Source: Rhodospirillales bacterium (lineage in GTDB: Bacteria > Pseudomonadota > Alphaproteobacteria > ATCC43930 > CGMCC-115725). Taken from it: DNA of 53,227 nucleotides. Below are positions 3,623 through 23,775 of the stretch, in pieces. How positions within the stretch are numbered: position 1 is the first letter of the stretch; every line of letters starts with the position of its first letter. The notes beneath the pieces were generated by a model that worked only from the letters and a program-made list of their open reading frames with translations, was not told the origin of the DNA and searched no databases. A program made the translations under genes and the position numbers. Where the stretch lies: the NCBI GenBank assembly GCA_028291405.1, contig JAQGID010000250.1:1-53227 (forward strand), given 5' to 3'.

Positions 3623-4645
3623 TCAGCGCGCGGCCGGGTCAAAGGTTTCGGGGAGCCGGATGCATCGCGCCGAATGCCTGTCGCCGACGGCGACCGGCTC
3701 GGGGGTCGTGGTCGAGCAGGCGGCAACCGAAAATCGGCAGCGAGGCGCGAAGCTGCAGCCTTGCATCAGGACCCGCATGTCCGGCGGACTTCCGGCGATC
3801 GCCTCGATGTCCCTGCCGCGTGCCTCGGCGGTGACCGTCGAGGAGAGCATGCCGATCGTGTAGGGATGGCGCGGCTGCATCAGAACGTCGCGCGCGCTGC
3901 CCTCCTCGACGATCTGACCTGCGTACATGACGGCGACGCGGTCGGCGATCTGAGCCGCGACGCCGAGATCGTGGGTCACGAAGATCAGCCCCATGCCGAA
4001 CTCCTTCTGCAGTTTGCGAAGCAGGATCAGGACCTGGATCTGGACCGTCGCATCGAGGGCCGTTGTCGGCTCGTCGGCGAGTAGTAGGCTCGGGCGGCAT
4101 GACAGGGCCATCGCGATGAGCGCGCGCTGGCGCAGCCCGCCCGACAGCTCGTGCGGGTAAGCATGTAGGCGGCGCTCCGGCGACGGAATTCGCACCAACT
4201 GGAGGATCTCGAGTGCTCGCGCCCAGGCGGTCCGACGACCGCAGCGCTGGTGCCGCAGGATCGTCTCGGTGATCTGGCGCCCTACCGTGTAGACAGGATC
4301 GAGCGCCGTCATCGGCTCCTGGAAGACCATTGAGACGACCGAGCCGCGGATCTCGCTGAGGCGCCGCTCGTCGAGCGCGATCATGTCGTGCGCGCCGACG
4401 CGCAATTCGCCGGTGATGACGGCGCGCTTGCGCGGCAGCAGCCGCATCAGGGCCCGCATCGTCACCGACTTGCCGGAGCCCGACTCTCCGATGATGCAGA
4501 GCACCTCGCCGGGCATCAGATCGAACGAGACGCCGTTGACTGCGCGGACGGTTTCCTCACGGCTGACGAACGACACGTGCAGATCGCGCACCTGCACCAA
4601 CGGCGCTTTCGTCGCGACATCGGGGATCGCTTGCGCGAGACTCAT
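3623..4645 (-). CDS. Peptide/amide ABC importer ATP-binding protein (DppD/OppD type)
   Basis: A 340-aa ATPase of a peptide-class (Opp/Dpp) importer. Walker A GESGSGKS, the Q-loop MVFQEPMTALDP, the signature LSGGLRQRA, Walker B LLLADEPTTALD and the switch His in FVTHDLG are all present. The C-terminal extension with cysteines (QGCSFAPRCRFSVAAC) is the oligopeptide/dipeptide ATPase tail that in related proteins binds an Fe-S cluster. The start ATG at 4645 overlaps the stop of the upstream ATPase gene (ATGA), so the two are translationally coupled. An in-frame extension to 4822 exists but overlaps the previous gene and is low-complexity Arg/Pro/Ala, so it was rejected. Confidence 0.93.
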   Translation of the reverse strand: MSLAQAIPDVATKAPLVQVRDLHVSFVSREETVRAVNGVSFDLMPGEVLCIIGESGSGKSVTMRALMRLLPRKRAVITGELRVGAHDMIALDERRLSEIRGSVVSMVFQEPMTALDPVYTVGRQITETILRHQRCGRRTAWARALEILQLVRIPSPERRLHAYPHELSGGLRQRALIAMALSCRPSLLLADEPTTALDATVQIQVLILLRKLQKEFGMGLIFVTHDLGVAAQIADRVAVMYAGQIVEEGSARDVLMQPRHPYTIGMLSSTVTAEARGRDIEAIAGSPPDMRVLMQGCSFAPRCRFSVAACSTTTPEPVAVGDRHSARCIRLPETFDPAAR

Positions 4646-5757
4646 GACCCCGCTCGCGTACCGTCGGCGGCGGGCTGCGCCAGCGAAGGTGGCGCCTCGC
4701 CAGCGTGGCTGTGTCCTGAGCCGGGGTCGGCCATGTGGCAGGCGGCGAAATGCGCGGCGCTTCCATGGCCGCCGAGGAGGCCCGGCGCCTGCGCCGTGCA
4801 GAGTGGCTCGGCGAAGGGACACCGCGAGCTGAAGCGGCAGCCCGGCGGCGGATTGATCGGATTCGGCGGATCGCCGGCGAGCGGCGCCGTATCGACCCGG
4901 TGGTCCGGATCGAGGCCGAGCCGCGAGTCAAGCAGTGCTCGCGTGTAGGGATGCTTCGGCCGCGCGAAGATGGCCTCCACGTCGCCGATCTCCACGACCT
5001 GGCCGAGATACATCACGAGCACCCGGTCCGAGATGTACTGGACCACATTCAGATCGTGCGAGATGAAGATATATGTCAGGTTGAATTGGCTCTTAAGTTC
5101 GCGCAGCAGATTTAGAACCTGCGCCTCGACCGATTTGTCGAGCGCCGAGACTGCCTCGTCGAGGATCAGCGCGCGCGGGTTGAGCGCGAGAGCGCGCGCG
5201 ATGTTGACGCGCTGTTTCTGGCCGCCCGAAAGCTCGTGGGGATAGCGGGCGCCGAACAGGTCCGGCGCGAGCCCGACCCGTTGGAGCAGGTCGCGCGCCA
5301 GCTTGTGCGCCGCCGCGCCGCGCATGCCATGGACGCGCGGCCCGTAGGCGACAGACGCCTGGATCGGGAGTCGCGGATTAAGCGAGGAATCGCTGTCCTG
5401 GAAGACGATCTGCAGATTGCGCCGCAGCTCGCGCAACGACAGACCTCGCTGACCGCCCACCGGGTCGCCGTCGAAGACGATGCTGCCGCGATCGAGCGGG
5501 AGCAGGCACATGATGAGGCGTGCCAGGGTCGATTTGCCGCAGCCGGACTCGCCGACGATGCCGAGTGTCTCGCCTTTCGAGACCGAGAAGCTGACGTCGT
5601 CCACTGCTCGTGCGACGGCGACCTTGCGCGAGAGCACGCCGCCGCGGATTGGGAAATATTTTTGCAGGTGCTCGACGATGAGCATCGGCTGTGCGCTGCC
5701 GCCGCGATCGCGCGGGTCGGCCGGTGCGGTTGGGGAGAATGCGATGTCGGAGCGCAT
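4642..5757 (-). CDS. Peptide/amide ABC importer ATP-binding protein (DppF/OppF type)
   Basis: A 371-aa ATPase, the second nucleotide-binding subunit of the importer. The DppF-like N-terminus ([10 protein letters not shown]) is followed by Walker [21 protein letters not shown], the signature LSGGQKQRV, Walker [11 protein letters not shown] and switch His in ISHDLNVV. The C-terminal Cys tail ([14 protein letters not shown]) resembles that of its partner. The Walker B block has EAVSALD rather than the commoner EPTSALD, a normal DppF variation. It lies 12 nt after the permease gene. Confidence 0.93.
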
Positions 5758-5769
5758 GCCGCTATTCCC

Positions 5770-6696
5770 CTAGGACCTGACGTCCATCGCCTGGCGCAGC
5801 CCGTCGCTCACCAGGTTGAAGGAAAGTGAGACGATGAAGATCGCCAGGCCGGGCAGGGCGCAGATGAGCGGCTGGACGTAGATCGATTGCCGCAACGTCG
5901 AGAGCATCAGTCCCCAGTCGGCGGTCGGCGGCTCTACCCCGAGCCCGAGGAAGGAGAGACCCGCCGCCAGCAGGATCGACACGGAGATCAGGCTCGAGGC
6001 GTAGATGAGCACCGGCGCCGACACGTTGCGGAGCACATGGTAGAAGATGATCGAGGTCGCCGAGGCCCCGCTGGCTCGCGCCGCCTCGACGAAATCGCGG
6101 TCGCGGATCTGCGTCGTCGCGCCCTCCGCGACGCGGCAAAGCGGCGGAATGAACACCAGCGTCAAGGCGATCAGGCCGTTGACGACACCGCCGCCCAGAG
6201 TCCCGGAAATCGCGACAGCTAGCAGGACCGAGGGAAATGCGTAGAAAACGTCCATGGTGCGCATGATCAGCGCGTTCACCCAGCCGCCGAGATAACCCGC
6301 GACAAGCCCGAGCGAGCCGCCGATGGCGGTGGCGAGAATGACCGGCGTCAGGCCCATCATCAGCGAGCTGCGGCCGCCATAAGTCAGCCGCGACAACATG
6401 TCACGACCGAGTTCGTCGGTGCCGAGCAGGAATCCGCGATAGCCGATCGGCTTCAGGCGGTAGATCATGCTCGACTTATAGGGGTCGAACGGCGCGATCA
6501 GCGGTGCGAAGATCGCGGCGAGGGCGATGGCGGCGATCAGGGCGATGAATAACAAGGTCACATAATCGTAGCGCAGCCGTCGCGCGACACCTCGCCAGTA
6601 TCCAGCGGGCGCAGCGCGCGTACTCGTTTCCGCGGCGAGCGGCCGGCCGGCCGCGTCCAGCGTCGTCTCTGTCACGCGTCCATCCACGCTCGTCAC
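5770..6696 (-). CDS. Peptide/amide ABC importer permease (DppC/OppC type)
   Basis: A 308-aa inner-membrane permease with a long N-terminal tail, a first membrane helix ([20 protein letters not shown]), the DppC sequence [13 protein letters not shown], and the ABC-coupling EAA loop near [15 protein letters not shown]. At least six membrane segments are visible. Proposed start is a GTG at 6696 that overlaps the dppB-like stop (GTGA); other in-frame GTG codons at 6687 and 6675 are possible, the last with GGATGGA just before it. An apparent much longer open frame reaching 7848 runs out of frame through the neighbouring permease gene and is an artefact. Confidence 0.9.
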
Positions 6697-7649
6697 GCGC
6701 GCTTGATGCGGGGATCGACCGCGGTCTGCAGCAAGTCGACGGCGAGATTGATGCCGACGAAGCACAGCGCGAGAACCAGCATGGCGCCCTGCAGCATCGG
6801 GATGTCTCGCGTCAGGATCGACTTGCTCAGCAGCAAGCCGGTGCCGGGCCAGGTGAAGATCGTCTCCGTCAGGATCGAGCCGCCGACCAGATAGCCGAAT
6901 TGCAGGCCCATCACGGCGAGCATCTGCGGCAGGGCATTGCGCACCGCGTGGCGCAGCACCGCGCCGCGGCGCAGGCCCTTGGCCCTCAGCGTCTGGATAA
7001 ACTCCTGCGACAGCACTTCGGCCACTGCCGATCGCGTGGTGCGCATGATGATTCCAAGCGGAACGCAGGCGGTCGTCACGACCGGCAGGATGACGTATCT
7101 GAACTGCGCCCAGCGGGTGATGTCGAAGCTGTCCGATCCGTTCGGGCCCATGCCGGCGACCGGCAGCGCGCCGAGCTTGACGGCGAAGACGATGATGAGA
7201 ACGATTCCGAGCCAATAGTTGGGAATGCTGACGCCGAACACGGAAATCGCCGTGGCGAGGCGATCGGGGGGACGGCCGATCGTGAAAGCCGCCAGAGTGC
7301 CGAGCGCGAGCGCCAGGGGATAGGCGACGAGCACCGCGCCGATCGACAGCACGAGCGTGTGGGAGAGGGCGCGCAGGACTTCGCGTAAGACTGGCTGGTT
7401 GGTCTGGATCGAGGTCCCGAGATCGCCAGTCACCGCGCGGCCGAGCCATTTCGCGTATTGCACCGGGATCGGCTTGTCGAAGCCGTAGACTTTCTTCAGG
7501 TAGGCGACGTCGGCTTGGGTAGCATCCGGCGGCAGCAGCGTCTGCACCGGATCGCCGGGGGCGAGATAGACAAGGCAAAAGCAGATCACCGTCACGCCGA
7601 GCGCGATGGGAATGGCAAGAAGAACCCGTCTGGCGGCGTAGTACCACAT
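6693..7649 (-). CDS. Peptide/amide ABC importer permease (DppB/OppB type)
   Basis: A 318-aa inner-membrane permease. It starts WYYAARRVLLAIPIALGV, as DppB proteins do, and contains APGDP, a TGDLGTS segment, and the coupling helix with LRAKGLRRGAVLRHAVRNA. About six membrane segments are visible. Alternative starts at 7664 and 7721 would only add a poorly conserved polar leader; 7649 best fits the family. It is the first gene of the leftward importer operon, divergent from the solute-binding protein gene. Confidence 0.9.
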   Translation of the reverse strand: MWYYAARRVLLAIPIALGVTVICFCLVYLAPGDPVQTLLPPDATQADVAYLKKVYGFDKPIPVQYAKWLGRAVTGDLGTSIQTNQPVLREVLRALSHTLVLSIGAVLVAYPLALALGTLAAFTIGRPPDRLATAISVFGVSIPNYWLGIVLIIVFAVKLGALPVAGMGPNGSDSFDITRWAQFRYVILPVVTTACVPLGIIMRTTRSAVAEVLSQEFIQTLRAKGLRRGAVLRHAVRNALPQMLAVMGLQFGYLVGGSILTETIFTWPGTGLLLSKSILTRDIPMLQGAMLVLALCFVGINLAVDLLQTAVDPRIKRA

Positions 7650-7917
7650 GACATCCGCGTCCATCCTGGCGTCGGCTGCGGGATACCAAGCAATCTCGGT
7701 GCCAAGATTGTGGCGACGCAACGTCGCGTCGCGCCGCCGTCGCGCGGTGATCTCGCCGAGCGCTGCACAAGATTTGGCGTGCGCGGCCTATCAACGCGCC
7801 ACCTTGAGCTCTGCGCTCGACGGCGCCACCGAGCGCGGAGCTAGGCACACGAATTGCATTCGTGTCTCCACAGGAGAGCGGGCGATCGGCGCCCCGCTCT
7901 TTCGGAGGTATCGACCC
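7650..7917. promoter_or_regulatory. Divergent promoter region of the peptide/amide importer
   Basis: 268 bp separate the first permease gene (leftward) from the solute-binding protein gene (rightward). Both transcripts should start here. I could not pick convincing -35/-10 boxes by eye. The ribosome site TTCGGAGGT lies 8 nt before the solute-binding protein ATG. Confidence 0.5.
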
Positions 7918-9510
7918 ATGTTCGATCGCTGCAGGGCTTGTCTATCGACGATCGCGGCGTTCGCGCTTCTCGCCGCCGCCGCGGGACCGGGCAGCGCACA
8001 TGCGGAGTCGGTCTTGCGCATAGCCATGACCGCCGGCGACATCCCCGATTGGGCCGGTCAGCCTGACCAGGGTTTCGAGGGCTATCGTTTCGTCGGCTTC
8101 AATCTGTATGACGGGCTGGTCAATTGGGACCTATCTTCCAGCGACAAGGAAGTCGACATCAAGCCGGGGCTCGCGACGAAATGGTATCCTGATCCGAGCG
8201 ACCCCAAGAAATGGATCTTCGAGCTGCGCCGCGGGGTCAAATACCACGATGGCTGCGACTGGAACGCCGATTCGGCGGTCTGGAACATCAAGCGCCTGAC
8301 CGACGACAAGAGCCCAGCCTTCAGTCCGCTCAACTTTGCGCGTGCGCGCGCCCGCACGAACAACTTCGACCAGGTCGGGAAGATCGATGACTTCACGATC
8401 TCGATCAGCACTAAAACGGCGGAGTCGCTCTTCCCTTATAACATGGTGTTCGTGCTGATGATGTCGAACTGCGCGCTCGAGAATGCGGGTAACGACTATA
8501 AAGTATACGCGACCGCGCCGGCGGGCACGGGGCCTTACAAATTCGACAAGGTCGTGTTGCACGAGCGTCTCGAGCTGGTGCGGAATGCGGCATACTGGGA
8601 TCAGAGCCGGATACCCAAGCAGGACCGCGTCGTCCTGCTGCCGATGCCGGAAGCCTCGACGCGCGTCGCGGCGCTGCTCTCCGGCCAAGTCGACATGGTC
8701 GAGGCGCCGCCGCCCGATGCCTTGCCGCAGCTCAAGTCAGCCGGCACGACGATCGTGACGAATGCCTATCCTCACACCTGGCCATATCTGTTGAATTTCC
8801 ACCGCGGCCCCTTCCAGGATCTGCGCGTCCGGCAGGCCGCGAACTACGCGATCGATCGCAAGGAGGTGGTGGAGATGCTGGGCGGTGTCGCGGTGCCGAG
8901 CTACGGCACCTATGTTCCGAGTCAGCGCTACTACGGTCATCCGGTCGAGCCGCAGACCGATCCGGCCAAGGCGACGGCGCTGCTTAAGGAGGCCGGGTGC
9001 TATCCCTGTAATCTCACGGTGGCGATCTCGCCGTCGGGCTCCGGCCAGATGCAGCCGCTGCCGATGAACGAACTCGTCAAGGAGCAGCTCGAGAGCGTCG
9101 GCTTCAAGGTCAAGTTCGAGACCGTCGACTGGAACACGTTGCTGGACATTTACATCCGCGGCGCGGTGAAGTACCCACAATACGACGCGATCAATTTCAG
9201 CAGCGGCGCCAGCGACCCGCTCAATTTTCTCAAGGTCTACATGAAAATCTACGCTGCGCCGCTCGGCCCGAATTGGGGCGGCTACGAAAACCCCGAGGTG
9301 GACGCGCTGGCGCAGCAGGTGCTAAGCAGCTTCGACGACGAGGAGCGCGTCAAGCTCATCACCAGGATCCATGAGATCACGGTGAAAGACTCCGCCCGCG
9401 TCTTCATCGTGAGCGACCTCAATCCCCGCGCGCTGTCGCCGAAGCTCTCCGGCTTTGTCCAGGCGCAAAGCTGGTTCCAAGACATCACCCCTATCATCGT
9501 GCATCCGTGA
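7918..9510 (+). CDS. ABC importer periplasmic solute-binding protein (family 5, peptide type)
   Basis: A 530-aa exported binding protein that delivers peptides or peptide-like amides to the divergently encoded permease. A signal peptide covers about residues 1-29 (hydrophobic core AAFALLAAAAGP, cleavage near SAHA-ES). The SBP family 5 hallmarks are PKKWIFELRRGVKYHDG, GTGPYKF, and LRVRQAANYAIDRKEVV. GGAGG precedes the chosen ATG; an in-frame extension back to 7648 crosses the divergent gene and was rejected. The asparaginase-family gene follows after 25 nt, suggesting that the imported compound carries an amide bond or is asparagine-like. Confidence 0.92.
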   Translation: MFDRCRACLSTIAAFALLAAAAGPGSAHAESVLRIAMTAGDIPDWAGQPDQGFEGYRFVGFNLYDGLVNWDLSSSDKEVDIKPGLATKWYPDPSDPKKWIFELRRGVKYHDGCDWNADSAVWNIKRLTDDKSPAFSPLNFARARARTNNFDQVGKIDDFTISISTKTAESLFPYNMVFVLMMSNCALENAGNDYKVYATAPAGTGPYKFDKVVLHERLELVRNAAYWDQSRIPKQDRVVLLPMPEASTRVAALLSGQVDMVEAPPPDALPQLKSAGTTIVTNAYPHTWPYLLNFHRGPFQDLRVRQAANYAIDRKEVVEMLGGVAVPSYGTYVPSQRYYGHPVEPQTDPAKATALLKEAGCYPCNLTVAISPSGSGQMQPLPMNELVKEQLESVGFKVKFETVDWNTLLDIYIRGAVKYPQYDAINFSSGASDPLNFLKVYMKIYAAPLGPNWGGYENPEVDALAQQVLSSFDDEERVKLITRIHEITVKDSARVFIVSDLNPRALSPKLSGFVQAQSWFQDITPIIVHP

Positions 9511-9535
9511 CGCGACAGAAGAGAAAAGCTCCATC

Positions 9536-11227
9536 ATGCCCAAGCTGCGGATTGCCCATCTCGCGGGCGGCAACGCCACCATCCAGAACACGCCGCCACT
9601 GGTCACCTCCAACAAGGCTCGGCGCAAGCACAACCTCCCGCTGATCGAAGGGACGGAGGAGGGGCGTGCGCGCTACGACGTGCTGCGGCCGCAACGCCTC
9701 GCCGCGCCTGTCACTGTCTACGTAGAGCAGTTCAGCGCGCATCCGCTCGAGGCGGATGCTGCCGAGCTCTATTGCGCACCCGACGGCTACGTCGACGTCG
9801 ACGGCAAGTTCCACAAGGAACGCCGCAGCCCGGCCGACCGGCCGGTCTACGAGATCGAGCTCCGTCCCGAGGACGGCGTCTACCCTATGCCCTACATGGC
9901 GCGGCAGGCGGACGGGCGCCCGTGGGAGGAGGAATGCACCGACCCCTTTGCTCCCGACAGTAAGGCGCGGCAGGGCTTCTTCCCCGATGGCTCGCGCAGC
10001 TTCGAGGAGATCGACCGGCTCTGCATCGGGGCTAATGGGCTCGGCAACCTCATCCTGTCGAAGGCCGACATCGACTTTCACCGCATCATTCCGCCGGCGG
10101 GATACCGCAAGGGCCTTCCCGCCGCTTCACGCACCGACGTCGGCGAGGGCGACATTCCGCCGGAGGTACGCGGCCGTGATTTCTTTCCCTACAAGCCGCG
10201 CCATCTCAATGCCGCGCCGCCGATGCGCGCCCTGGCGAGCATCGTCAACAAGGTGCAGAAAATCGTCTCCAGCGACAAGTACGACGGCGCGATCTGGACG
10301 CAGGGCAGCCCGCGGATCGAGGAGACCAGCTATTGGCTCAACCTGTTGATCGACACGACGATCCCGATCTGCGCCAACGCGGCGCAGCGCCCGCACGGCC
10401 AGATCAGCAACGACGGTCCACAGAACCTCGTCGATTCCGTCGACTACATCGCATCGAAGGTCTGGGCCGATCCGCAGGGCAGGAACCTCGCCGGCTTCGT
10501 CCTCGTCCAGGACCAGCAGATCTACGCCTCGCGCGACGTCACCAAGATAGCGGCGCGTCCGGGCGGCTATATCTCGACGAGCGGCCAGAGCGGCGTGCTC
10601 GGGACCTTCGGCCATGACGGTCCGGTGCTTCACTATGCGCCGATGAGCCGCCATACGCATTGCTCAGAGGTGCGCGTGACCGTCCTGCCGAGCGAGGTCG
10701 CCGGCGTTCGGATGACCGAGCGCGGCATTGCGACGGTCCCGGTCGCGATCAAGAACGCGGGCGGGGATCTGCTCGAGACCGCCATTCCGGAGGTGGCGAT
10801 CGTCAAGAACGGAAACTACATCGCCGACGATCTCGATCCCGATGTCGCGCGCGAGGTCGATCTCATCGCCCTGATCGAGCACCGGCTTCGCCACGCCCCG
10901 CTCGCCGGCTTCGTGATCGAGGGTCTGGCACCCTACGGCAGCATTCCGTCGGTGGCCCGCAATAAATTGATGCTGCGTGCCGCTTACAGCGGCATGCCAG
11001 TCGTCTGCGTCGGCCGGGGAAATCCGCAGGAAGCGGTTCCCGAGGGCGGCCCGTTCGTTGCCGGCTCGAATCTTACGTCGACCAAGGCGCGTCTCTTGCT
11101 GATGGCCTGCCTGATGCGATTCGGCAGCATGCCGGTCGCGCACGAACCCGACAATCCTACGGCCGACGAGAAGGCCGCGACGGCTCACAAGGTTAAGGAA
11201 TACCAAGCGGTGTTCCACACGCACTGA
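9536..11227 (+). CDS. Asparaginase-family protein with altered catalytic motifs
   Basis: A 563-aa protein, longer than the usual 330-residue L-asparaginase. The asparaginase core is recognisable: the central segment DGAIWTQGSPRIEETSYWLN (about residues 250-269) matches the family's DGxVxTHGTDTMEET region, and the C-terminal segment YGSIPS (about 466-471) plus SGMPVVCVGRG matches the GxGNVP region. The TD pair that forms part of the catalytic triad in known asparaginases reads SP here, and the N-terminal GGTI motif reads GGNATI. So it is either a divergent amidohydrolase or a non-hydrolytic relative. There is no signal peptide. It is cotranscribed with the importer binding protein. Start ATG at 9536 follows GAAGAGAAAAG. 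Confidence 0.75.
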   Translation: MPKLRIAHLAGGNATIQNTPPLVTSNKARRKHNLPLIEGTEEGRARYDVLRPQRLAAPVTVYVEQFSAHPLEADAAELYCAPDGYVDVDGKFHKERRSPADRPVYEIELRPEDGVYPMPYMARQADGRPWEEECTDPFAPDSKARQGFFPDGSRSFEEIDRLCIGANGLGNLILSKADIDFHRIIPPAGYRKGLPAASRTDVGEGDIPPEVRGRDFFPYKPRHLNAAPPMRALASIVNKVQKIVSSDKYDGAIWTQGSPRIEETSYWLNLLIDTTIPICANAAQRPHGQISNDGPQNLVDSVDYIASKVWADPQGRNLAGFVLVQDQQIYASRDVTKIAARPGGYISTSGQSGVLGTFGHDGPVLHYAPMSRHTHCSEVRVTVLPSEVAGVRMTERGIATVPVAIKNAGGDLLETAIPEVAIVKNGNYIADDLDPDVAREVDLIALIEHRLRHAPLAGFVIEGLAPYGSIPSVARNKLMLRAAYSGMPVVCVGRGNPQEAVPEGGPFVAGSNLTSTKARLLLMACLMRFGSMPVAHEPDNPTADEKAATAHKVKEYQAVFHTH

Positions 11228-11483: not shown

Positions 11484-12254
11484 TCACACGCGGAATTTAT
11501 ACACCGCGCCGGGAGCGCGCTCGATGTCGGGGGGAAAGCTGGCGCGCTTCTCGACCAAATAACGGCTGCGATGATTGCCTGCCGAGGCTGCGTTGTAGGT
11601 AACATAGAGGATGCGACGCGGACCGTCAGTGCGATTGGGTTTGGAGGCATGCGGCGCATAGCTGTCGAAGAACAGCACGTCGCCCGGCTCTGTCGGCATC
11701 GGCATCAGCGAGACGCCCCCCATCTCCGGCGGCGACAGCGGGCGCCACTCCTCGCCGACGAGACGCGTGAGGCGCGGACCCGTGCCCATCTCCAGACAGC
11801 CGTTCTCTAACGTAGCGGGATCGATGGTGACGAGAGCGGTGACGAAGATCGGCGCGTAGCGCGACCAACCGGCCTGCTGGTCCTGATGCGGTTCGAAGCC
11901 GGCACCTCCCGGCATCTTGAAATTGACCTTCTCCTTGAAGAGGCAGGAAGGCTCGCCGATGAGACGATCCGCCGCGTCGCGCAGCTTTCCGCGGCGTACC
12001 AGACGATCAAAGCCCCTGTGATACGGGACGAAGTTCTCAATGCGCTGCACGATGCTTTCGCCGGCCGGGCTCTCCTCCCAATAAACCATGTGCTTCCCGG
12101 GCTCCTCCGGCAGCGCCAGGAGCTCGTCGATCCAGCGCGCGATGCGCTGGATTTCGCGCGAGCCAAAGAAGCCGCGCACCAGCACCCAGCCCGTGGCGTG
12201 GTAGGTCTCGATCTCGGCGTGCGCAAGCCGGTCCGCGATGATGACGTCAGACAT
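11484..12254 (-). CDS. PhyH-family Fe(II)/2-oxoglutarate dioxygenase, probable phosphonate hydroxylase
   Basis: A 256-aa cytoplasmic oxygenase of the phytanoyl-CoA dioxygenase family. The iron facial triad is visible as H123-x-D125 (FEPHQDQQAGW) and H202 (YAPHASKPN), and R213/R214 is the likely 2-oxoglutarate anchor. A lysine-rich KEKVNFKMPGG strand precedes the HxD, as in the phosphonate-acting members I recall. Last gene of the phosphonate operon: its ATG overlaps the nucleotidyltransferase stop by 8 nt. PhnY-type relatives hydroxylate C1 of 2-aminoethylphosphonate. No HD-type PhnZ oxygenase, which would cleave that product, is encoded in the window, so a biosynthetic rather than degradative role is inferred. 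The timing (free AEP or lipid-bound AEP) is unknown. Confidence 0.85.
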   Translation of the reverse strand: MSDVIIADRLAHAEIETYHATGWVLVRGFFGSREIQRIARWIDELLALPEEPGKHMVYWEESPAGESIVQRIENFVPYHRGFDRLVRRGKLRDAADRLIGEPSCLFKEKVNFKMPGGAGFEPHQDQQAGWSRYAPIFVTALVTIDPATLENGCLEMGTGPRLTRLVGEEWRPLSPPEMGGVSLMPMPTEPGDVLFFDSYAPHASKPNRTDGPRRILYVTYNAASAGNHRSRYLVEKRASFPPDIERAPGAVYKFRV

Positions 12255-13017
12255 GCGTCGGCTCCATCAGCCGCGGCAGAATGGACTCCTGCGCCCGGAC
12301 CACATCCTCCGCGAAATCGATTTCGGTCCAGGGCAGTTCGCTGATGTCCTCGGCCCCAAAGCGATTGGGATACGCCAGGATGAGGTCACGAATGGCGGCC
12401 TCGTATTCAAGCTCTGTCTCGCCTTGTCGCACGTAAGCGTCTGCGCGCGTGGCGAGAGCGTCCGCGAGCGCTGCCGAGAAACGGAAGAACCCCACGGACT
12501 CGCCATGCCAATCATGCGCCTCGACGGGGCGTTTAGCGAAATCGACGATGCGGTTGCCGCTCATGCAGATCTTGACCGGCTCATCGCCAAGCTCTATGGC
12601 GCGGTCAAGCAGCAAGACGTTCTCATGCGCGGCGGCCAGCAGACGCGCGATCAGACGGTGGTCGTAGAGTACATCGCCGTCCATCAGAAGTACCTCGCGC
12701 CCGGCCGCGAGCCACGCCTGCTGCATCCATAGCGAGACGATGCTGCCTTCCCGGTAGCGCGGGTTCTCGATGAGCGCAACGCGATCCGAGAGTTGCAGTC
12801 GCCGCAGTTCGGCAAAGACGTGAGCGGCCTCGTGCCCCACGGTGAGAGCGATGTCCGTCACACCCTCGGCATGGAGTGCGGCGATGTGACGCTCGAGCAA
12901 GGTCCTGCCGCCAAACTTGAGCAGAATCTTAGGGCCCTCGCCGCCGAGACGCCGCCCGACACCGGCGGCGAGAATTACGGCGACGGGCCGCGCCTCCGCT
13001 GAGTGAACGCTCCTCAT
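12247..13017 (-). CDS. MobA/LicC-like nucleotidyltransferase, probable phosphonate cytidylyltransferase
   Basis: A 256-aa single-domain nucleotidyltransferase. The N-terminal motif VILAAGVGRRLGGEGPKIL is the LAAGxGxR...PK nucleotide-binding loop, and LLMDGDVLYD supplies the metal-binding Asp. The layout resembles LicC-type phosphocholine cytidylyltransferases and the PntC domain that activates AEP as CMP-AEP. It is the second nucleotidyltransferase of the operon, the other being fused to PEP mutase. Start and stop overlap both neighbours (ATGA at 13017-13014; 8 nt at the 3' end). Nucleotide and acceptor are inferred from context. Confidence 0.85.
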   Translation of the reverse strand: MRSVHSAEARPVAVILAAGVGRRLGGEGPKILLKFGGRTLLERHIAALHAEGVTDIALTVGHEAAHVFAELRRLQLSDRVALIENPRYREGSIVSLWMQQAWLAAGREVLLMDGDVLYDHRLIARLLAAAHENVLLLDRAIELGDEPVKICMSGNRIVDFAKRPVEAHDWHGESVGFFRFSAALADALATRADAYVRQGETELEYEAAIRDLILAYPNRFGAEDISELPWTEIDFAEDVVRAQESILPRLMEPTHV

Positions 13018-14168
13018 CGACGTACTTCCGCGGATGCGTCGAAAGACTGAACCTCGGCGGCGCGTTCCGGTGCCAACCCGAAATCGTCCAAGACAGAGGC
13101 GATCGCGGCAACTAGCTGCTCGAAATCCGCCGGCTCGAGCGCGCCGATGCAGCCGATTCGGAAGCTGGCGTTCCCAGTGAGCTTGCCGGGATAGATAATG
13201 AAGCCCCGCTTTGCGAGTGCGGCATAGAAGGCGTCAAAGCGGAAGCGTTCGTCCCCAGGCGCGTGGAAGGTGGCGATGATCGGCGCTTGGACGCTCGGAT
13301 CGAGGAAAAGCCGGAAGCCCAGCCGCTGCATCCCTTCGGCGAGAGTACGGAAATTCGCGGCGTAGCGGCGGGCGCGCGCTCGAGGTCCGCCCTCGACCTC
13401 GAGCGCGCGCAGCGCTTCGAGCAATGCGGCGACTACCTGCACGGGCGGAGTGAATCGCCACTGGCCATTGCTCTCCAACCCCCGCCATTGATCGAAGAGG
13501 TCGAGGCTGAGGCTTGGTGCGACACCTTTGGCGCGCGCGATCAGAGACCGCTCGATCAGCGCGAAGGCGATGCCAGGGACACTTTCGAGGCACTTATTAC
13601 TGGACGCCAATAATGCCGCCACGACAGTCCCACCGAGATCGAGCGGCAGCGCGCCGAAGCTGCTCATCGCGTCGAGGAGGAGTGGCTTTTTGTGCCGCGC
13701 GGCGATCGTCGCCACTGCTTCAAGTGGGTTCAGCAGCCCGGAGGTCGTTTCGCAATGCACGAGCGCGAGATGAGTGATCGCCGGACAATCGATCAGCGCA
13801 CGCTCGACCACGACCGGGTCGACAGGACGGTTCTCCGGCCAGCGGAGCACCTCTATCCGACGGCCCAGCCGGCGCGCGATCTCTACCATGCGGTCGCCAT
13901 AGGCGCCATTCACCAACACGAGCAGCAGGTCGGAAGGTGCCACCAAGGTGCCGATTGCCGCCTCGACGATGAAGGTACCGCTGCCTTGAAGCGGGATGGC
14001 GACGTGGCTCGAGCGAGCGCCCGCGATGTCCAGCAGGCGCTCGCCGAGCTCGGTGGTCATGGCGGTGAAGGCAGGCTCGCGCGATCCCCAATCATCGAGC
14101 ATGGCACGCCGCGTTTCTGTGCGGGTGGTGAGTGGTCCCGGAGTGAACAACAAGGCAGCTTCAACCAT
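13014..14168 (-). CDS. phnW: 2-aminoethylphosphonate-pyruvate transaminase-like PLP enzyme
   Basis: A 384-aa fold-type I, class V aminotransferase. The opening LLFTPGPLTTRTETR, the QGSGTF cofactor-phosphate motif (61-66), LLLDAMSSFGALPLDL with the PLP-contacting Asp, and the Schiff-base Lys192 in ASSNKCLESVPG match PhnW. In the biosynthetic direction it would convert phosphonoacetaldehyde to AEP. The start at 14168 is set by GGGAGG 6 nt upstream; an upstream in-frame codon at 14198 is not needed. It overlaps the phosphatidyltransferase gene by 8 nt. PhnW is also found in catabolic loci, but neighbouring pepM and ppd make synthesis the natural reading here. Confidence 0.9.
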   Translation of the reverse strand: MVEAALLFTPGPLTTRTETRRAMLDDWGSREPAFTAMTTELGERLLDIAGARSSHVAIPLQGSGTFIVEAAIGTLVAPSDLLLVLVNGAYGDRMVEIARRLGRRIEVLRWPENRPVDPVVVERALIDCPAITHLALVHCETTSGLLNPLEAVATIAARHKKPLLLDAMSSFGALPLDLGGTVVAALLASSNKCLESVPGIAFALIERSLIARAKGVAPSLSLDLFDQWRGLESNGQWRFTPPVQVVAALLEALRALEVEGGPRARARRYAANFRTLAEGMQRLGFRLFLDPSVQAPIIATFHAPGDERFRFDAFYAALAKRGFIIYPGKLTGNASFRIGCIGALEPADFEQLVAAIASVLDDFGLAPERAAEVQSFDASAEVRR

Positions 14169-14799
14169 GGCGAACCTCCCTATGCGATTTTCCGGCATTG
14201 TCCTGTCGGAGGCTGAGCCGTCTGAGCCGCCAACCGGTGATCATCATCATGCAGGTGCTACCGAGGCTTCCGCCCACCAACAACGGCACCAGCCAGCCGA
14301 GCCAGATGATCGGAGCGATGAAATAGAGAAGATCATCCAAATCGAAGCCGAAGGCGCCGGCATAAGCCTTCGTGCCTGGGCGCTCGCGGCGCTCGAGTTG
14401 CTCCGACCAAGTGCCGCAAAGGAAGAGAGCAAGCCCGGTCCAAAGGCCGAGCCAGACTGCGTCTGCGCCCAGCGAGGATTGTCGCAGGCCAATTCCGGCA
14501 GCGATAAAGAAACCGCTATTCACCAGCGTGTCGGCAATATAGTCGTAATGATGGCCAGTCGGTGTCGACATGCCACCGATCCGCGCGAGCTCGCCATCGG
14601 CACGATCGAGAAATGCCGAGACGAGCCAGAGCCACGCACTGCATGAAAGCCAAGATGGATCGCCTGCGGCCAGGGTGGCGCAGGAGGCCGCACCAGTCAG
14701 CAGGCGTAATGTCGTAAGATGGTTGGGCGTGACGCTCCGCCCGACCAGCGGCCGCACGGCGAGTCGCGCCAAGCGGTGGGTCCAGGAGGTTCCGATCAC
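14161..14799 (-). CDS. CDP-alcohol phosphatidyltransferase (candidate phosphonolipid synthase)
   Basis: A 212-aa integral membrane enzyme. The catalytic CDP-alcohol phosphotransferase signature Dx2DGx2ARx8Gx3Dx3D is complete: D65, D68-G69, A72-R73, G82, D86 and D90. An N-terminal VRPLVGRSVTPNHLTTLRLL segment and several membrane helices follow the usual layout. It should move a CMP-activated headgroup onto a lipid alcohol or the reverse. Between phosphonate genes, the likely donor is CMP-AEP and the product an AEP-lipid. The GTG start at 14799 overlaps the upstream stop (GTGA). A longer open reading to 15312 is out of frame with the neighbour and was rejected. Confidence 0.88.
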   Translation of the reverse strand: MIGTSWTHRLARLAVRPLVGRSVTPNHLTTLRLLTGAASCATLAAGDPSWLSCSAWLWLVSAFLDRADGELARIGGMSTPTGHHYDYIADTLVNSGFFIAAGIGLRQSSLGADAVWLGLWTGLALFLCGTWSEQLERRERPGTKAYAGAFGFDLDDLLYFIAPIIWLGWLVPLLVGGSLGSTCMMMITGWRLRRLSLRQDNAGKSHREVRHG

Positions 14800-15797
14800 G
14801 GCACCAGTTCCCACTGACGCGGGGGTGCCGCCGCTCGCCCGCGGCGGAGGATCAGCCGGCGCTCGAGGATATGCCAAGCTAGGAGACCGGGGATGCCGAG
14901 CGCCACTTCGCGGATCCGCCTCAGTAGCGAAAGCTCGATCGCGGCCTGCGGGCCAATCCCCACCAGACCGCAAACGAGGATGTTGCCGGCCTCCTGCACG
15001 CCCATGGCACCGGGAACGAAAAAACCCATGGCGCGCGTCGCCTGGCCGAGGCTTTCGATAACGAGCGCATCGCCGAGATCGACCGGCACGCCCAGCAGAT
15101 AGAGCGCCAGCATTACCTCGAATCCGCCCAGCAACCACGAGATTAGGTGATGCATGAAGCCCAGGCTTAGACGCACCGGCTGGCGGTAGAGCGCCCCAAC
15201 GGCAGCATGCAGGCCGCGGACCTCGCCCAGCGCCGCCCATCCGACGCGATCCGACAAACTCACCAGGATGCGTTCGAGCAGTTGAACGATGCCGAGCCGC
15301 TTCGCCAGCCATAAGGAGAGAACGATCCCGGCGGCAATGATCGTGCCCTCGGCGATCCAGCGCGTCGCATCAAGCTGCGGCGCGGTTCGAAGGAGGATCG
15401 CGAGCCCAAGCAACGTGAAGGCGACTTGGCTCATCATCTCTAGGATGAGATCCACGGCGACGGTGGCACCGGCGGCCGCGAGCGTCACCCCCTGGGTGCG
15501 CAGCAGCCTCGCACCGACGACCTCGCCGCCGATCTGCGCCACCGGCAAGAGGGCGTTCACCGCTTCGCGAATCCAACGAAGCCGCGAGATGGTGGCGAAG
15601 CGCTGTTGCGGCAGCAATGCCTGCAACGCGAGCGCGGAGAACACGATCTGCACCAGATGGTACGCCACGAGCGCGAGGATGCCCCAACCGGCCCCGCGGA
15701 TGGCGGTGCCGATCTCGGCCGCGCCGTAGAGGGCGATCAGCGCGACTGCGATCGCGGTGCCCGCGGCAGTTGCGATTAAAGCGCCGAAAAGCCTCAC
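14796..15797 (-). CDS. Flippase-like membrane protein (LPG synthase TM / HpnL type)
   Basis: A 333-aa protein with about seven to eight membrane segments, starting with a helix at residues 2-24. The family is the lysylphosphatidylglycerol-synthase transmembrane/AglD/HpnL group; the segment FFVPGAMGVQEAGNILVCGL is typical of it. Such proteins are thought to flip lipids or lipid-linked groups. In this operon it could move a phosphonolipid between membrane leaflets. Its ATG overlaps the decarboxylase stop (ATGA) and its stop overlaps the phosphatidyltransferase GTG. Confidence 0.82.
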   Translation of the reverse strand: MRLFGALIATAAGTAIAVALIALYGAAEIGTAIRGAGWGILALVAYHLVQIVFSALALQALLPQQRFATISRLRWIREAVNALLPVAQIGGEVVGARLLRTQGVTLAAAGATVAVDLILEMMSQVAFTLLGLAILLRTAPQLDATRWIAEGTIIAAGIVLSLWLAKRLGIVQLLERILVSLSDRVGWAALGEVRGLHAAVGALYRQPVRLSLGFMHHLISWLLGGFEVMLALYLLGVPVDLGDALVIESLGQATRAMGFFVPGAMGVQEAGNILVCGLVGIGPQAAIELSLLRRIREVALGIPGLLAWHILERRLILRRGRAAAPPRQWELVP

Positions 15798-16984
15798 CGG
15801 CGATGATCCGGGGCGGCCGGGCCTCTCCCCTTGCCTGCCTGCGCGAGGTACGTCTTGAAACGGCGCGCAACGGCGTCCGGGCTGATGGTTGGGCGGCCAA
15901 GCTCGCGCATCGAGCCCGGGGCAATGCGGGCGTGGACGAGGGCGGGCTTCGGCGCATCCGCGGCGAGCTTGACCGCCGCCGTGAACCCCTGAAGGCTACG
16001 ACAGGAGACGGCGTAGCGATAGCCGCAGGCCAGCGCAACGGCGGCGAAATCGACAGAGGCCGACACGGTCGGCTGACCCCCCGTCGAATCATGGACGCCG
16101 TTGTCGAGCAGGATGTGAGTGAGATTGCCGGGACGATACGCCCCGATGGTGGCAAATGTACCAAGCTTCATCAGCGCCGCGCCGTCGCCATCGAGCGCGA
16201 TGACGGGCAATTTCGTGTTGAGTGCTACCCCGAGCGCCATCCCCGGAGCGCCACCCATCGATCCCACCTGGTAGAGATGCTGCGGCCGGTCGGCAAGCGT
16301 GAAGAGCTCGCGACCGCACTTTCCCGTGGTGGCAATGATTGCTGCATCGGCATCCACCGTGGCCAGGAAGCGCTCAAGCACGGCCGCGCGTGTCGGCAGC
16401 GGGTCGTCCATCGCCATGTCCTCGCGGGTGCCGATTTCGGCCCGCGGCTGTGACCATGGAACGAGCGCCTCGTCGCGCAAGCTGTCCTTCTCCATCACAA
16501 GCGCGAAGGGACGATTCGTGTCCGCCATGTGCTTCGCCGCGAGAGTCAAGGTGGCCAGCAGCAACTCCGGCGTACGCGGAAACGGCGCATGCTCGACATT
16601 AATGACTGAGAGCAGGCGTTGGGTGATTTCCCCCATGACCTTGTGCTGCGGCTCGTCTGGAATCCCCGGCTGACCGCGCCAAGTGGTAATCAGCAGCGTT
16701 GGAATGTGGAACGGCGCATTGAGCGACGTGAGCGGGTTGACGGCATTGCCGAGACCCGAGTTTTGACAGAGCACTACCGTCTGTCGCCCGCCCAGCCAAG
16801 CGCCCGCGGCGATCGCCACCGCCTCGCCTTCGCTCGCCGCGCCGACATAGTCGAGCCGGGAGCTGCCGAGCACGGCATTGATCAAGGGCGTCAGAAAGCT
16901 GCATGGGACCCCGGTATAGAAATCGAAGCCGCGCTGCGCGCCCTCAGCGATGAAGTCCGCCGCGGTGATCATGGGCGAGGTCAT
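15794..16984 (-). CDS. ppd: Phosphonopyruvate decarboxylase (ThDP-dependent)
   Basis: A 396-aa thiamine-diphosphate enzyme that makes phosphonoacetaldehyde from phosphonopyruvate and so pulls the unfavourable PEP mutase reaction forward. The N-terminal segment [15 protein letters not shown] is typical of Ppd. The cofactor-activating Glu is in [12 protein letters not shown] (E52). The ThDP/Mg motif runs from GDG at 266-268 to N295 in [13 protein letters not shown]. It overlaps the pepM stop by 4 nt (ATGA). An alternative ATG four codons in is possible. Related sulfopyruvate decarboxylases were considered, but the pepM neighbour settles the function. Confidence 0.93.
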
Positions 16985-18633
16985 GTGAAGTTGCGCGCGT
17001 TCGAGAGATCCTCAAGCGTGTCGACGTCCAACCAGTGGCCGGTGACGTAGTGGACGCGGACAGAGTGCCGCTCGGCGAGGCGCGTCAGAAGGAAGGGCAA
17101 ATCGGCCCTGTCCAGCGTGCCCTCGGCCTCGACGAGGTTGATTTCCTCGCGCAGCCACCGCGCCCCTTGGGCGGTGAAGCGCGCAAGGCCTATCCATTCG
17201 CCACAGCATTCGGGGGCCGGCAGCGCCGACGAGACCGTGATCAGGCGGACTGGCTCGTCGTCGAGATAGTTGCCCGAGAAAGGGCGGTCGGCGGCGACAA
17301 GATCGCGCAACACCGCGCCGGACCGCGGGTGCCCTAGCGTATCGACGGCGATCACGATGTCGCCCTCGGCATTGAGCAGCCCATCGAGGATGTAGCGGCG
17401 GAAGAGGATGTCACCGTACACGACGATGGTCTCGCCATCGATCTGCGCCCGGGCACAGGCCAGCGAGTAGGCTTCGCCAGCCTCGGCATACCGGTCATTG
17501 TCGACATTTATAATCCCGGGCAGCGTGATCGCCTCTTTGCGATAGCCGCGAACCACGGTCACATTGCGCACTCCGCTGTCGGCGAGCACGCCTACAAGGC
17601 GCTGCAGCAGCGACTGGCCTCGCACGTCGATCATGCATTTCGGTTGGTCATAGGTGAGTTCGCCCAAATCGCCGCGTGAGGCCGCCAGCACGATGGCGCG
17701 GTTCGTGGTGCGGCCCGGCAGATAGCGCTTCTCCGCCGCTTCCAGCTCTGCATTGCCGACCAAGCGAAAGATGTCCTGCACGCTGGCGACGCGACCTTCC
17801 ACCTCCTGCAAGGATTCGTCCTCGGCAATGCGGCGGCAGGTGTCGCGCATTGCCGTAATCGCGGCGCGGAGCGTGTGATTGGCCCAGATCACGGTCGAGA
17901 TGCCGGCATGGCGGAAGAGTGTCGTAGGGGTCGCGTGATAGGCGGTCGGCACGATCACAACCGGACAACGGTTCTGCCAGCGCTCGGCGAAGGCTAGCAC
18001 CTCGCAGGCGGTCGACTTCTTGGAATGGATAAGGATCGCGTCCGCGCCGGCCGCGCGATAGGCTTCGGCGCGACGCAGCGCCTCGCCAAGCCCGAAACCC
18101 GAGACCAAAGCCTCGATGCGGGCGACGAAGACGAAATCCTCATTGCTCTGACTGTCCTTGCCAGCCTTGATGCGGCCGCAGAATTCGCTGATTTCGGCCA
18201 GCGGCTGGGCCTCGCCGATGAAGGAGTTGGTCTTCGGAAACAGCTTGTCCTCAATACACACGCCGGCAATCTGTCGCTCGCACAGTTTGCGGACGAGGCG
18301 GCGAACGTTGTTGAAATTGCCGTAGCCTGTATCGCCATCCACAAGGATAGGCAGTTGAGTGGCGTCGGCCATGGACTCCAGTACCTCGAGCACTTGCGTC
18401 CAGGAAGCCTCATTGCTATCGCGCAAGCCGAGGCTCGCTGAAATCGTGAGGCCTGAAGCCCAGATGCCGCGGAACCCCGCCTCTTGCACGATCTTGGCGG
18501 AAAGGCCGCTATGCGCTTCCATCAGAAACGAGAGAAAAGGGGAGAAGATTTCCGCCCGCAGCGAGGCCGCACGGCCGAGCGGCGGGGGCGAACCGGGGTA
18601 GTCCGACGACAGCAGCGTCTGGTGGGAGCTCAC
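16981..18633 (-). CDS. pepM: PEP mutase fused to a C-terminal nucleotidyltransferase
   Basis: A 550-aa bifunctional protein and first gene of the phosphonate operon. Residues about 25-300 are an isocitrate-lyase-fold PEP mutase: the exact signature EDKx5NS is present as [10 protein letters not shown] (128-137), and VDGDTGYGN (98-106) carries the Mg-binding acids. This domain forms the C-P bond (PEP to phosphonopyruvate). Residues about 313-550 are a nucleotidyltransferase (IVLAASRG, then [18 protein letters not shown]), likely to activate a phosphonate with CTP; such fusions are known in phosphonate clusters. The start at 18633 keeps the N-terminal leader; a later start near residue 38 would cut into the barrel. 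Confidence 0.95.
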
Positions 18634-18942: not shown

Positions 18943-19210
18943 ATGAGCCATAACACGTGGACCGAATCGTGCGTCCGCTTATCGGCACCGCGGTGACACC
19001 CCATCATCTCACCGCGCTACGCCTGCTAACCGGCATCGCCGCTGCCCTGCTCATGGCTCGGGACGATCCCTTCAGGCTAGACTTCGCCGGCGCGATCTTC
19101 TCATGTCATTCCTGCTCGACCATGCCGATGGCGAATTGGCGCCGCAGACCGGGGTAACTTTACCCGACAATCATCGCTTCGATCTCTACGCCGACAAAGT
19201 TAACCGCCGT
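18943..19210 (+). pseudogene. Frameshifted, truncated second CDP-alcohol phosphatidyltransferase
   Basis: Three frames read in succession rebuild a homologue of the operon's phosphatidyltransferase. It starts MSHNTWTE (ATG 18943, GGGAG just before), shifts to RIVRPLIGTAVTPHHLTAL near 18960, then shifts again near 19100 to FLLDHADGELAPQTG and FDLYADKV. In the 22-residue segment VRPL...LLTG, 17 positions match the intact copy. The catalytic signature is damaged: Arg of AR reads Pro and the central Gly reads Asn. The C-terminal half is missing, replaced by unrelated sequence ending at TAA 19231. It is divergent from pepM, so this flank once held another phosphonolipid-type gene. Confidence 0.85.
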
Positions 19211-21779: not shown

Positions 21780-22083
21780 GGGCGCTGTCCGATTCGTGGC
21801 CGCTGCCCGCCGAGGCTTTTGGCAAGGGAACGCAGGCCCTGGTCAATCCGCATGCTGATTAGCTTCACGATCCGGCAATCTCGTCCTCGGCCAGTCGCGC
21901 GACGTTCCTCGGAAAACCGGACGACCTCTAGTTGCTTTACTTTGACCCTGTTTTCCCGTTTACGCGGCTCTTTCTTGGCTATTGTTAAGTTTTCAGAACT
22001 CTTCAAAAATTCATTCGAATAGTACGTCAATTGCTTTACCCTCGCAATCGGCGGCAAGCCAAACTCAAGACGGGAGGACGCGA
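21780..22083. promoter_or_regulatory. Divergent promoter region of the type II secretion locus
   Basis: 304 bp between gspL (leftward) and gspE (rightward), noticeably more AT-rich than its surroundings (21940-22040). The 9-mer TTGCTTTAC occurs twice in the same orientation, at 21932-21940 and 22031-22039. GGGAGG at 22072-22077 serves the TTG start of gspE. Confidence 0.55.
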
Positions 22084-23775
22084 TTGTCGCCGGATCGAGA
22101 GACGTTCGAACGGCTGCTAATGTCTCGGCTAGTCGGAGCCGGCAAGATCGAAAGGTCCGCCGCCGATCGAGCCTTGCGGCTGAAAGGTGCCGGGAAGGAG
22201 CCGCTCGAGCGAATTGTCACTCGGCTGGGTTTGGCACATGAGCGCGACGTCACCGAGGCGATGTCGTGCGAACTCGGAGTGGCATTGGTAACCGCTTCTG
22301 ACTTTCCGGATGCCCCTGTCCTGGAAGCGGCGAGCGCTCGGTTTCTCCGGCAGACACAAGTCCTGCCGCTGCGCGAGACGCCCGAAGCCGTCACGCTCGC
22401 CGTCAGCGATCCACTCGACGACTATCCGGTGCGGTCGCTCGCTCTGCTTGCCGGGAAGCCGGTCGAGGTGCGCCTCGCAGCGCCGTCGGATATCGAAGCT
22501 GCGTACGAGCGACTCTACGGACACGAGAGCAACGCGATCAATCAGATTGCAGATGGAATCGACGTTGCCGAGGACACGAGCTCCGACGAGGACGTCAGTC
22601 GGTTGCGGGATCTCGCTAGCGAGGAGCCGGTCATACGCTTGGTCAACCAGCTGATCGCGCGGGCGGTGGAAAGCCAGGCCTCAGACATTCATGTTGAGCC
22701 GTTTCAAGATCGCCTTGTGGTTCGCTATCGCGTCGATGGCTTGTTGCGCCCAGGTGCGACGCCGCCGACCCGGCTGCGCGCGGCCATCGTGTCGCGAATA
22801 AAGATCATGGCGAAGCTCAACATCGCGGAGCGCCGTCTCCCTCAGGACGGGCGGATACGCATTGCGGTGCGCGGCCGCGATTACGATCTCCGCGTCGCGA
22901 CGGTCCCGACCCTGCACGGCGAGGGCGTCACGATGCGGATACTTGACCATGCGAGTCTCGTTGAGGACTTCACGGTGCTCGGCTTCACGCCGGAAACACT
23001 CAAGCAATACTTGAGTCTTTTGGAGCAACCCCAAGGGATCTTGCTGGTTACGGGGCCGACGGGGAGCGGCAAGACGACCACGCTTTATACCAGTCTTCTC
23101 AGGCTGAATACGCCGGACAAGAAGATCTTTACGGTCGAGGATCCAATCGAGTACCAGCTCGACGGCGTAAATCAAATCCAGGTCAAGCCGCAGATCAAGC
23201 TGACCTTCGCCGAGATTTTGCGAACCCTGCTGCGGCACAACCCGAATATCATCATGATCGGCGAGATGCGCGATTTTGAGACCGCGCAGATTGCAATCCA
23301 GGCGGCTCTGACGGGCCACCTCGTGCTTTCCACGCTTCACACCAACGATGCTGCGAGCTCGGTGACACGGTTGCTCGACATGAAGGTCGAGGACTATCTG
23401 GTGACGTCGACCCTGAACGGCGTGACGGCGCAGCGTCTTGTCCGAAGATTGTGCGAATCATGTCGGAGGCCGCGCCGGGTGCTACCCGAGTTTCTCGAGC
23501 GCATGACGACCGAGGCTGGCGCCGCGACGCTTTACGAGGCGGCGGGCTGCGATGCCTGTCATGGCAGCGGCTATCGCGGCCAGGTTGCCCTCATCGAGGT
23601 TCTGCCCATGTCGGACGCGATCCGCCGGTTGGTCCTCAGGCACGCCGAGGCACGCGAGATCCAGGCGACGGCGATCGAGGAGGGTATGGCGACGATGTAT
23701 CAGGATGGGATTCTCAAGGCGCTGGCTGGCGTCACGACTATCGAAGAAGTGCTGCGCGTCACCCGGAACGTTTGA
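22084..23775 (+). CDS. gspE: Type II secretion ATPase GspE
   Basis: A 563-aa hexameric ATPase that powers pseudopilus assembly. The N-terminal domain (LGLAHERDVTEAMSCELGV) resembles the GspE/PilB N-terminus. Then follow Walker A GPTGSGKTTT (about 324-333), the Asp box, Walker B IIMIGEMRD, the His box and the Cys4 zinc motif (CESC, CDAC). The TTG at 22084 is chosen because GGGAGG is 6 nt before it; an open extension back to 21982 has no ribosome site and lies in AT-rich DNA. gspF follows after 3 nt. Confidence 0.95.
   Translation: MSPDRETFERLLMSRLVGAGKIERSAADRALRLKGAGKEPLERIVTRLGLAHERDVTEAMSCELGVALVTASDFPDAPVLEAASARFLRQTQVLPLRETPEAVTLAVSDPLDDYPVRSLALLAGKPVEVRLAAPSDIEAAYERLYGHESNAINQIADGIDVAEDTSSDEDVSRLRDLASEEPVIRLVNQLIARAVESQASDIHVEPFQDRLVVRYRVDGLLRPGATPPTRLRAAIVSRIKIMAKLNIAERRLPQDGRIRIAVRGRDYDLRVATVPTLHGEGVTMRILDHASLVEDFTVLGFTPETLKQYLSLLEQPQGILLVTGPTGSGKTTTLYTSLLRLNTPDKKIFTVEDPIEYQLDGVNQIQVKPQIKLTFAEILRTLLRHNPNIIMIGEMRDFETAQIAIQAALTGHLVLSTLHTNDAASSVTRLLDMKVEDYLVTSTLNGVTAQRLVRRLCESCRRPRRVLPEFLERMTTEAGAATLYEAAGCDACHGSGYRGQVALIEVLPMSDAIRRLVLRHAEAREIQATAIEEGMATMYQDGILKALAGVTTIEEVLRVTRNV

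Follow-up and report, generated by a model that had tools for sequence, protein, structure and literature searches.

Which molecule receives the 2-aminoethylphosphonate (AEP) made by a compact phosphonate operon that also encodes a cytidine diphosphate (CDP)-alcohol phosphotransferase, a flippase-like protein and a dioxygenase? The question is raised by a seven-gene operon on contig JAQGID010000250.1 of a Rhodospirillales bacterium (assembly GCA_028291405.1), of which we analysed positions 1-53,227, a stretch referred to here as the window. Phosphonolipids withstand ordinary phospholipases, and the phosphonate capacity of bacteria is thought to be mostly destined for cell surfaces, the tailoring steps being unproven. 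We consider it likely, judging from the genes and their relatives, that the product is a membrane lipid bearing an AEP head group, with its rare carbon-phosphorus bond and probably a hydroxyl at C1.

The operon consists of seven consecutive open reading frames (ORFs) of the minus strand, running from 18633 to 11484, and successive genes overlap by 4, 4, 4, 8, 4 and 8 nt if GTG at 14799 is taken as the start codon of the CDP-alcohol transferase and ATG at 14168 as that of the transaminase. A longer transferase ORF (14161-15312) was not taken as the gene; it runs past its upstream neighbour. The same gene set is found together in many other genomes, and thus the grouping is beyond what would be expected by chance. 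An initial annotation of the window had already given this gene order with overlaps of 4 or 8 nt, to which the ORF coordinates conform, and its family assignments are upheld by curated-model scores for PepM, Ppd, PhnW, CDP-OH_P_transf and PhyH. What it had missed is that the flippase-like protein belongs to the HpnL subfamily and that a decayed second CDP-alcohol transferase gene lies nearby.

The three enzymes that make AEP are assigned by equivalog models. The product of pepM (16981..18633, GTG start, 550 aa) scores 379 bits against TIGR02320 (cut-off 320), keeps the EDKxxxxxNS motif and has the Mytilus-type phosphoenolpyruvate (PEP) mutase 1m1b as its nearest solved structure. Ppd (15794..16984, 396 aa), the phosphonopyruvate decarboxylase, scores 418 bits against TIGR03297 (cut-off 313), and the PhnW-type AEP transaminase (13014..14168, 384 aa, with an alternative upstream ATG possible at 14198) reaches 468 bits against PRK13479 (cut-off 296) and 429 bits against TIGR02326 (cut-off 401). 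PepM would convert PEP to phosphonopyruvate, Ppd would yield phosphonoacetaldehyde and the transaminase AEP, in keeping with the initial claim that the operon makes this compound. PepM also carries a C-terminal NTP_transf_3 domain (16981-17700), in which the GxG(T/S)R motif, including its arginine, is gone in 13/13 aligned sequences.

A separate nucleotidyltransferase (12247..13017, 256 aa) is encoded further downstream. Its best solved structure is Treponema denticola PntC (6pd1), which ranks above LicC with an E-value of 4.9e-12 for the single sequence and 4.8e-25 for the profile. PntC is a proven CMP-AEP synthase (CMP, cytidine monophosphate), and replacement of R15, K25 or K153 in the T. 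denticola enzyme lowers activity to below 10% (PMC6697681). The equivalent residues in the window enzyme are R23, K30 and K162, and E206 corresponds to the AEP-contacting E196; all four are invariant in 17 homologues. The other AEP contact of PntC, E104, is Asp113 in the window enzyme. The homology and the retained catalytic residues are strong evidence that this enzyme would activate AEP, or hydroxylated AEP, as a CMP ester, as had been proposed.

The next step would be the transfer of the phosphonate from the CMP ester onto a lipid hydroxyl, and here the enzyme family is clearer than the acceptor. The CDP-alcohol phosphotransferase (14161..14799, GTG start, 212 aa) scores 51 bits against CDP-OH_P_transf (PF01066; cut-off 22), and its motif, D65xxDGxxAR(x8)GxxxDxxxD90, is invariant in 14 homologues. 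The predicted model (pLDDT, the predicted local distance difference test score, 88) has a fold that matches AF2299, PIP synthase and CPT1. The adjacent membrane protein (14796..15797, GTG start, 333 aa; LPG_synthase_TM) scores 276 bits against the HpnL model TIGR03476, for which the cut-off is 196, and it may flip the product. Both proteins had been recognised in the initial annotation, and the family models bear this out.

The last gene of the operon encodes a PhyH-family Fe/2-oxoglutarate dioxygenase (11484..12254, 256 aa), the proposed hydroxylase of the AEP moiety. The protein scores 85 bits against PF05721 (cut-off 22), its predicted model (pLDDT 92) has the expected fold, and H123, D125, H202 and R213 are invariant in 28/28 aligned orthologues. 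Orthologues at 45-53% identity occur in Alphaproteobacteria, Gammaproteobacteria, Cyanobacteria, Omnitrophota, Acidobacteriota and Melainabacteria. At 21 of the 28 loci, pepM, ppd, PntC-like or CDP-alcohol transferase genes lie in the fetched flank, and six of the remaining seven genomes carry PepM elsewhere. PepM (E<=1e-70) was found in 13/20 genomes with a PhyH orthologue and in 17/299 background genomes drawn from the phylum of the window; the two sets were sampled differently, and a p-value is only a guide here. PhyH and PepM are also both present in G509, G511, G512, G517 and G526, genomes that yielded no hopene cyclase. On Rhizobium rhizogenes pC5.7d (L116, 8148-10409), PntC-like, PhyH and LicD genes stand in a row with Ppd nearby and no lipid transferase, which looks like a hydroxy-AEP glycan variant, i.e., a different acceptor combined with the same type of hydroxylase. 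Since AEP is the factor common to these contexts, the AEP moiety is the likely substrate of PhyH, and the association of the enzyme with the AEP pathway that had been suggested for the window thus extends to several phyla, where orthologues travel with PepM and PntC. C1 is probably the hydroxylated position by analogy with the methylphosphonate hydroxylase PhnY*. The initial annotation had the lipid flipped and then hydroxylated. This order is disfavoured: PhyH looks like a soluble Fe/2-oxoglutarate enzyme and sits between PntC-like and LicD genes in the glycan-type cluster, so that the hydroxyl is more likely to be added in the cytosol, before or at transfer, than after the flip.

Several further observations concern PhyH. 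Catabolism of the PhnY*-PhnZ type was rejected, since no PhnZ (TIGR03276) scored above the cut-off in the host's own genome and none was found beside the orthologues; conversely, PhnZ loci in the class sample held no PhyH relative of the window type. The PhyH tree has long branches and gives no reliable placement relative to the Rhodococcus PhnY* relative. An apparent fusion of PhyH and AEP transaminase in Azospirillum thermophilum was set aside, because its linker looks like a stretch translated in the wrong frame. Rhizobial homologues of PhyH (26-30%; L095, L120) lie beside a lysine/ornithine N-hydroxylase gene and a class I tRNA-ligase-like gene, in a separate and unrelated biosynthetic cluster.

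A number of points weigh against a pathway to a hydroxylated AEP lipid. The best NCBIfam model for PhyH, PhnY* (NF052437), gives 173 bits against a cut-off of 500, and a rhizobial PhyH homologue in a different type of cluster scores about equally on it. A genome of the same genus (G001) carries an intact pair of PhyH and CDP-alcohol transferase genes (L029, 7956-9306), and no PepM was found in it. The Roseomonas cassette has no PhyH gene within the 16 kb read, and clusters of the Burkholderia type (Mycetohabitans, Burkholderia) encode a HalD-like oxygenase (L122, 9131-9838; L123, 6026-6718) in place of PhyH, which is perhaps a non-homologous replacement of the hydroxylase. The low PhnY* score and the same-genus genome speak for a PhyH that acts on something other than AEP, e.g., on a lipid or a hopanoid side chain, and so does one orthologue (54%) that is flanked by hpnB and dxs within a hopanoid operon. 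We regard such a substrate as unlikely, because orthologues accompany PepM in genomes that yielded no hopene cyclase and, in the Rhizobium cluster, stand with PntC-like and LicD genes but no lipid transferase; the former also led us to reject a hopanoid as the universal substrate of PhyH. A second possibility is that the head group is placed on a cell-surface glycan and not on a lipid, as is proposed for most of the characterised PntC systems and as a PhyH relative beside LicD might suggest. However, the window operon has neither LicD nor a glycosyltransferase and encodes instead a CDP-alcohol transferase and an HpnL-type flippase, which makes a glycan acceptor very improbable. A membrane lipid with an AEP head group stays our preferred product.

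As to which lipid, the notion that a diacylglycerol or a ceramide accepts the head group follows the proposals of 2013-2018 and the sphingophosphonolipid of Bdellovibrio, and the solved structure that the transferase sequence by itself matches best is the human choline/ethanolamine phosphotransferase, which uses diacylglycerol. Its profile and fold are, however, equally near to AF2299, IPCT-DIPPS and PIP synthases, and thus the fold does not settle the specificity. The genomic surroundings may point elsewhere. In marine Rhodospirillales metagenome-assembled genomes (MAGs), the genes for CDP-alcohol transferases, Ppd, PepM, PhyH and the PntC-like enzyme are part of a full hopanoid locus with HpnM, HpnL, HpnN, HpnA, IspH, HpnH, HpnG and SHC. 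On Roseomonas marmotae p1318-3, shc-hpnG-hpnH-ispH are followed by genes for CDP-alcohol transferase, AEP transaminase (AEPT), HpnL, ppd, pepM and PntC-like protein, and these by polyprenyl synthetase, dxs and HpnN. In G056 the PhyH orthologue between hpnB and dxs is part of a run with shc, hpnE and hpnC (L031, 907-10705), in G520 and G522 PntC-like, pepM, ppd and AEPT genes stand beside dxs, hpnH and hpnM, and in Mycetohabitans dxs adjoins AEPT. Because the gene orders differ between lineages, the linkage to hopanoid genes has outlasted rearrangement. It is matched by co-occurrence: among 47 genomes with PhyH, PepM or both, hopene cyclase was found in 27/28 that have a transferase of the window type and in 3/19 that lack it (Fisher p 1e-8). 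With one vote per known family the counts are 6/6 and 2/8 (p 0.01), and for PepM-positive genomes of the phylum draw, the window included, 4/4 and 2/13 (p 0.006). The lone exception, G520, has hpnH adjoining pepM, and thus its cyclase may only be missing from the assembly.

These data raise the serious possibility, of somewhat less than even chance, that (1-hydroxy-)2-aminoethylphosphonate is attached by its phosphonate group to one of the hydroxyls of a bacteriohopane polyol, and that HpnL flips the resulting phosphonohopanoid, which HpnN would move on in some relatives. The co-occurrence of transferase and cyclase, the location of the cassette within or next to runs of hopanoid genes, in varied order (marine Rhodospirillales, Roseomonas, G056 and gammaproteobacterial-type MAGs) and the HpnL-subfamily flippase of the window all speak for such an acceptor, and a survey of 2021 noted a link between pepM and hopene cyclase in Roseomonas and suggested a terpene-phosphonate (PMC8776678). 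The host genome itself has a hopene cyclase (G000:C32, E 1.9e-239). Yet the hopanoid operon of that genome is found on a different contig (L112), and among the hopanoid genes tested only the HpnL-type gene is present in the window. No report of this lipid class was found in the literature searched, shared ancestry may inflate the association, given the kinship among many of the positive genomes, and the linkage could reflect a joint handling of outer-membrane lipids. If the hopanoid genes are near simply because both products are membrane lipids, a diacylglycerol or ceramide acceptor, which we hold to be a little less probable than a hopanoid, would be retained, although the strong association with hopanoid genes is not something that it predicts. 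On balance a hopanoid is slightly favoured over diacylglycerol or another lipid. The initial annotation had the product as a lipid and left the acceptor open; the lipid stands, and a hopanoid now has no less evidence behind it than diacylglycerol.

On the plus strand upstream of pepM (~18943-19196), and divergent from it, are the decayed remains of a second CDP-alcohol transferase gene, spread over three frames. A tblastn search with the intact transferase matched 76 columns in one frame at 43% and 32 columns in a second frame at 50%, and the start, MSHNTW, resembles that of relatives. Several marine relatives have two or three CDP-alcohol transferase genes within the cassette, and therefore the window cluster has probably lost one. 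Upstream of pepM, the best match to a Pho box was no better than in shuffled sequence. Farther upstream of the operon (21982-23775), the translation of an ORF resembles a type II secretion/pilus ATPase (GspE-like), and downstream (3623-11227) there are oligopeptide-type ABC transporter genes and a gene for an asparaginase-domain protein.

The compact operon would provide every step required for a heterologous trial of the hydroxy-AEP lipid pathway. If the acceptor is a hopanoid, the pathway would unite two membrane chemistries of bacteria in a hopanoid head group of a new kind, which would matter for marine phosphonate pools and for hopanoids as biomarkers.

The initial annotation knew of no assigned bacterial pathway of this kind, which was too strong. 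The same seven functions had been predicted together for a lichen Nostoc (CDP-APT, OG-Fe(II) oxygenase, NTPT, pepM, ppd, AEPT and hpnL) with a homologous cluster in Burkholderia (PMC5987646, 2018, Fig. 7); the pathway shown there is adapted from the survey of Yu et al. 2013, and the paper lists hydroxy-AEP (HAEP). HAEP in phospholipids was likewise postulated "on genomic grounds" (PMC8154272). The pathway is thus a prediction already made in the 2013-2018 work, and not a proof; no biochemical proof of transfer or hydroxylation was found. The novelty here is limited, and the new element is the lead on the lipid acceptor. The window shares its gene content with the predicted HAEP-phosphonolipid clusters of Nostoc (compared by the published gene list) and Burkholderia and differs from them in gene order, and the Burkholderia and Mycetohabitans records have the HalD-like oxygenase and not PhyH. 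The 1-hydroxy-AEP sphingophosphonolipid of Bdellovibrio stolpii, reported in 2001 and cited in PMC8154272, has a head group like the one proposed here, on a sphingolipid backbone. The cassette of Roseomonas p1318-3 (identity to the window: PepM 70%, ppd 66%, AEPT 63%, PntC-like 56%, HpnL 47%, CDP-alcohol transferase 44%), differs in being embedded among shc, hpnG, hpnH, ispH, dxs and HpnN and in its lack of PhyH over the stretch read. Oxidative degradation of AEP or methylphosphonate by PhnY*-PhnZ employs a homologous PhyH-type Fe/2-oxoglutarate enzyme, and in a Rhodococcus PhyH-PhnZ pair the PhyH protein shares 34% identity with that of the window, whereas the window enzyme belongs to a biosynthetic operon and has no PhnZ partner. 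With the phosphonyl-tailoring systems of PntC (PMC6697681) the operon has in common the CMP activation of AEP and the catalytic residues of the T. denticola enzyme; the clusters of those systems carry LicD-like or glycosyltransferase genes, in the place of which the window operon has a CDP-alcohol transferase.

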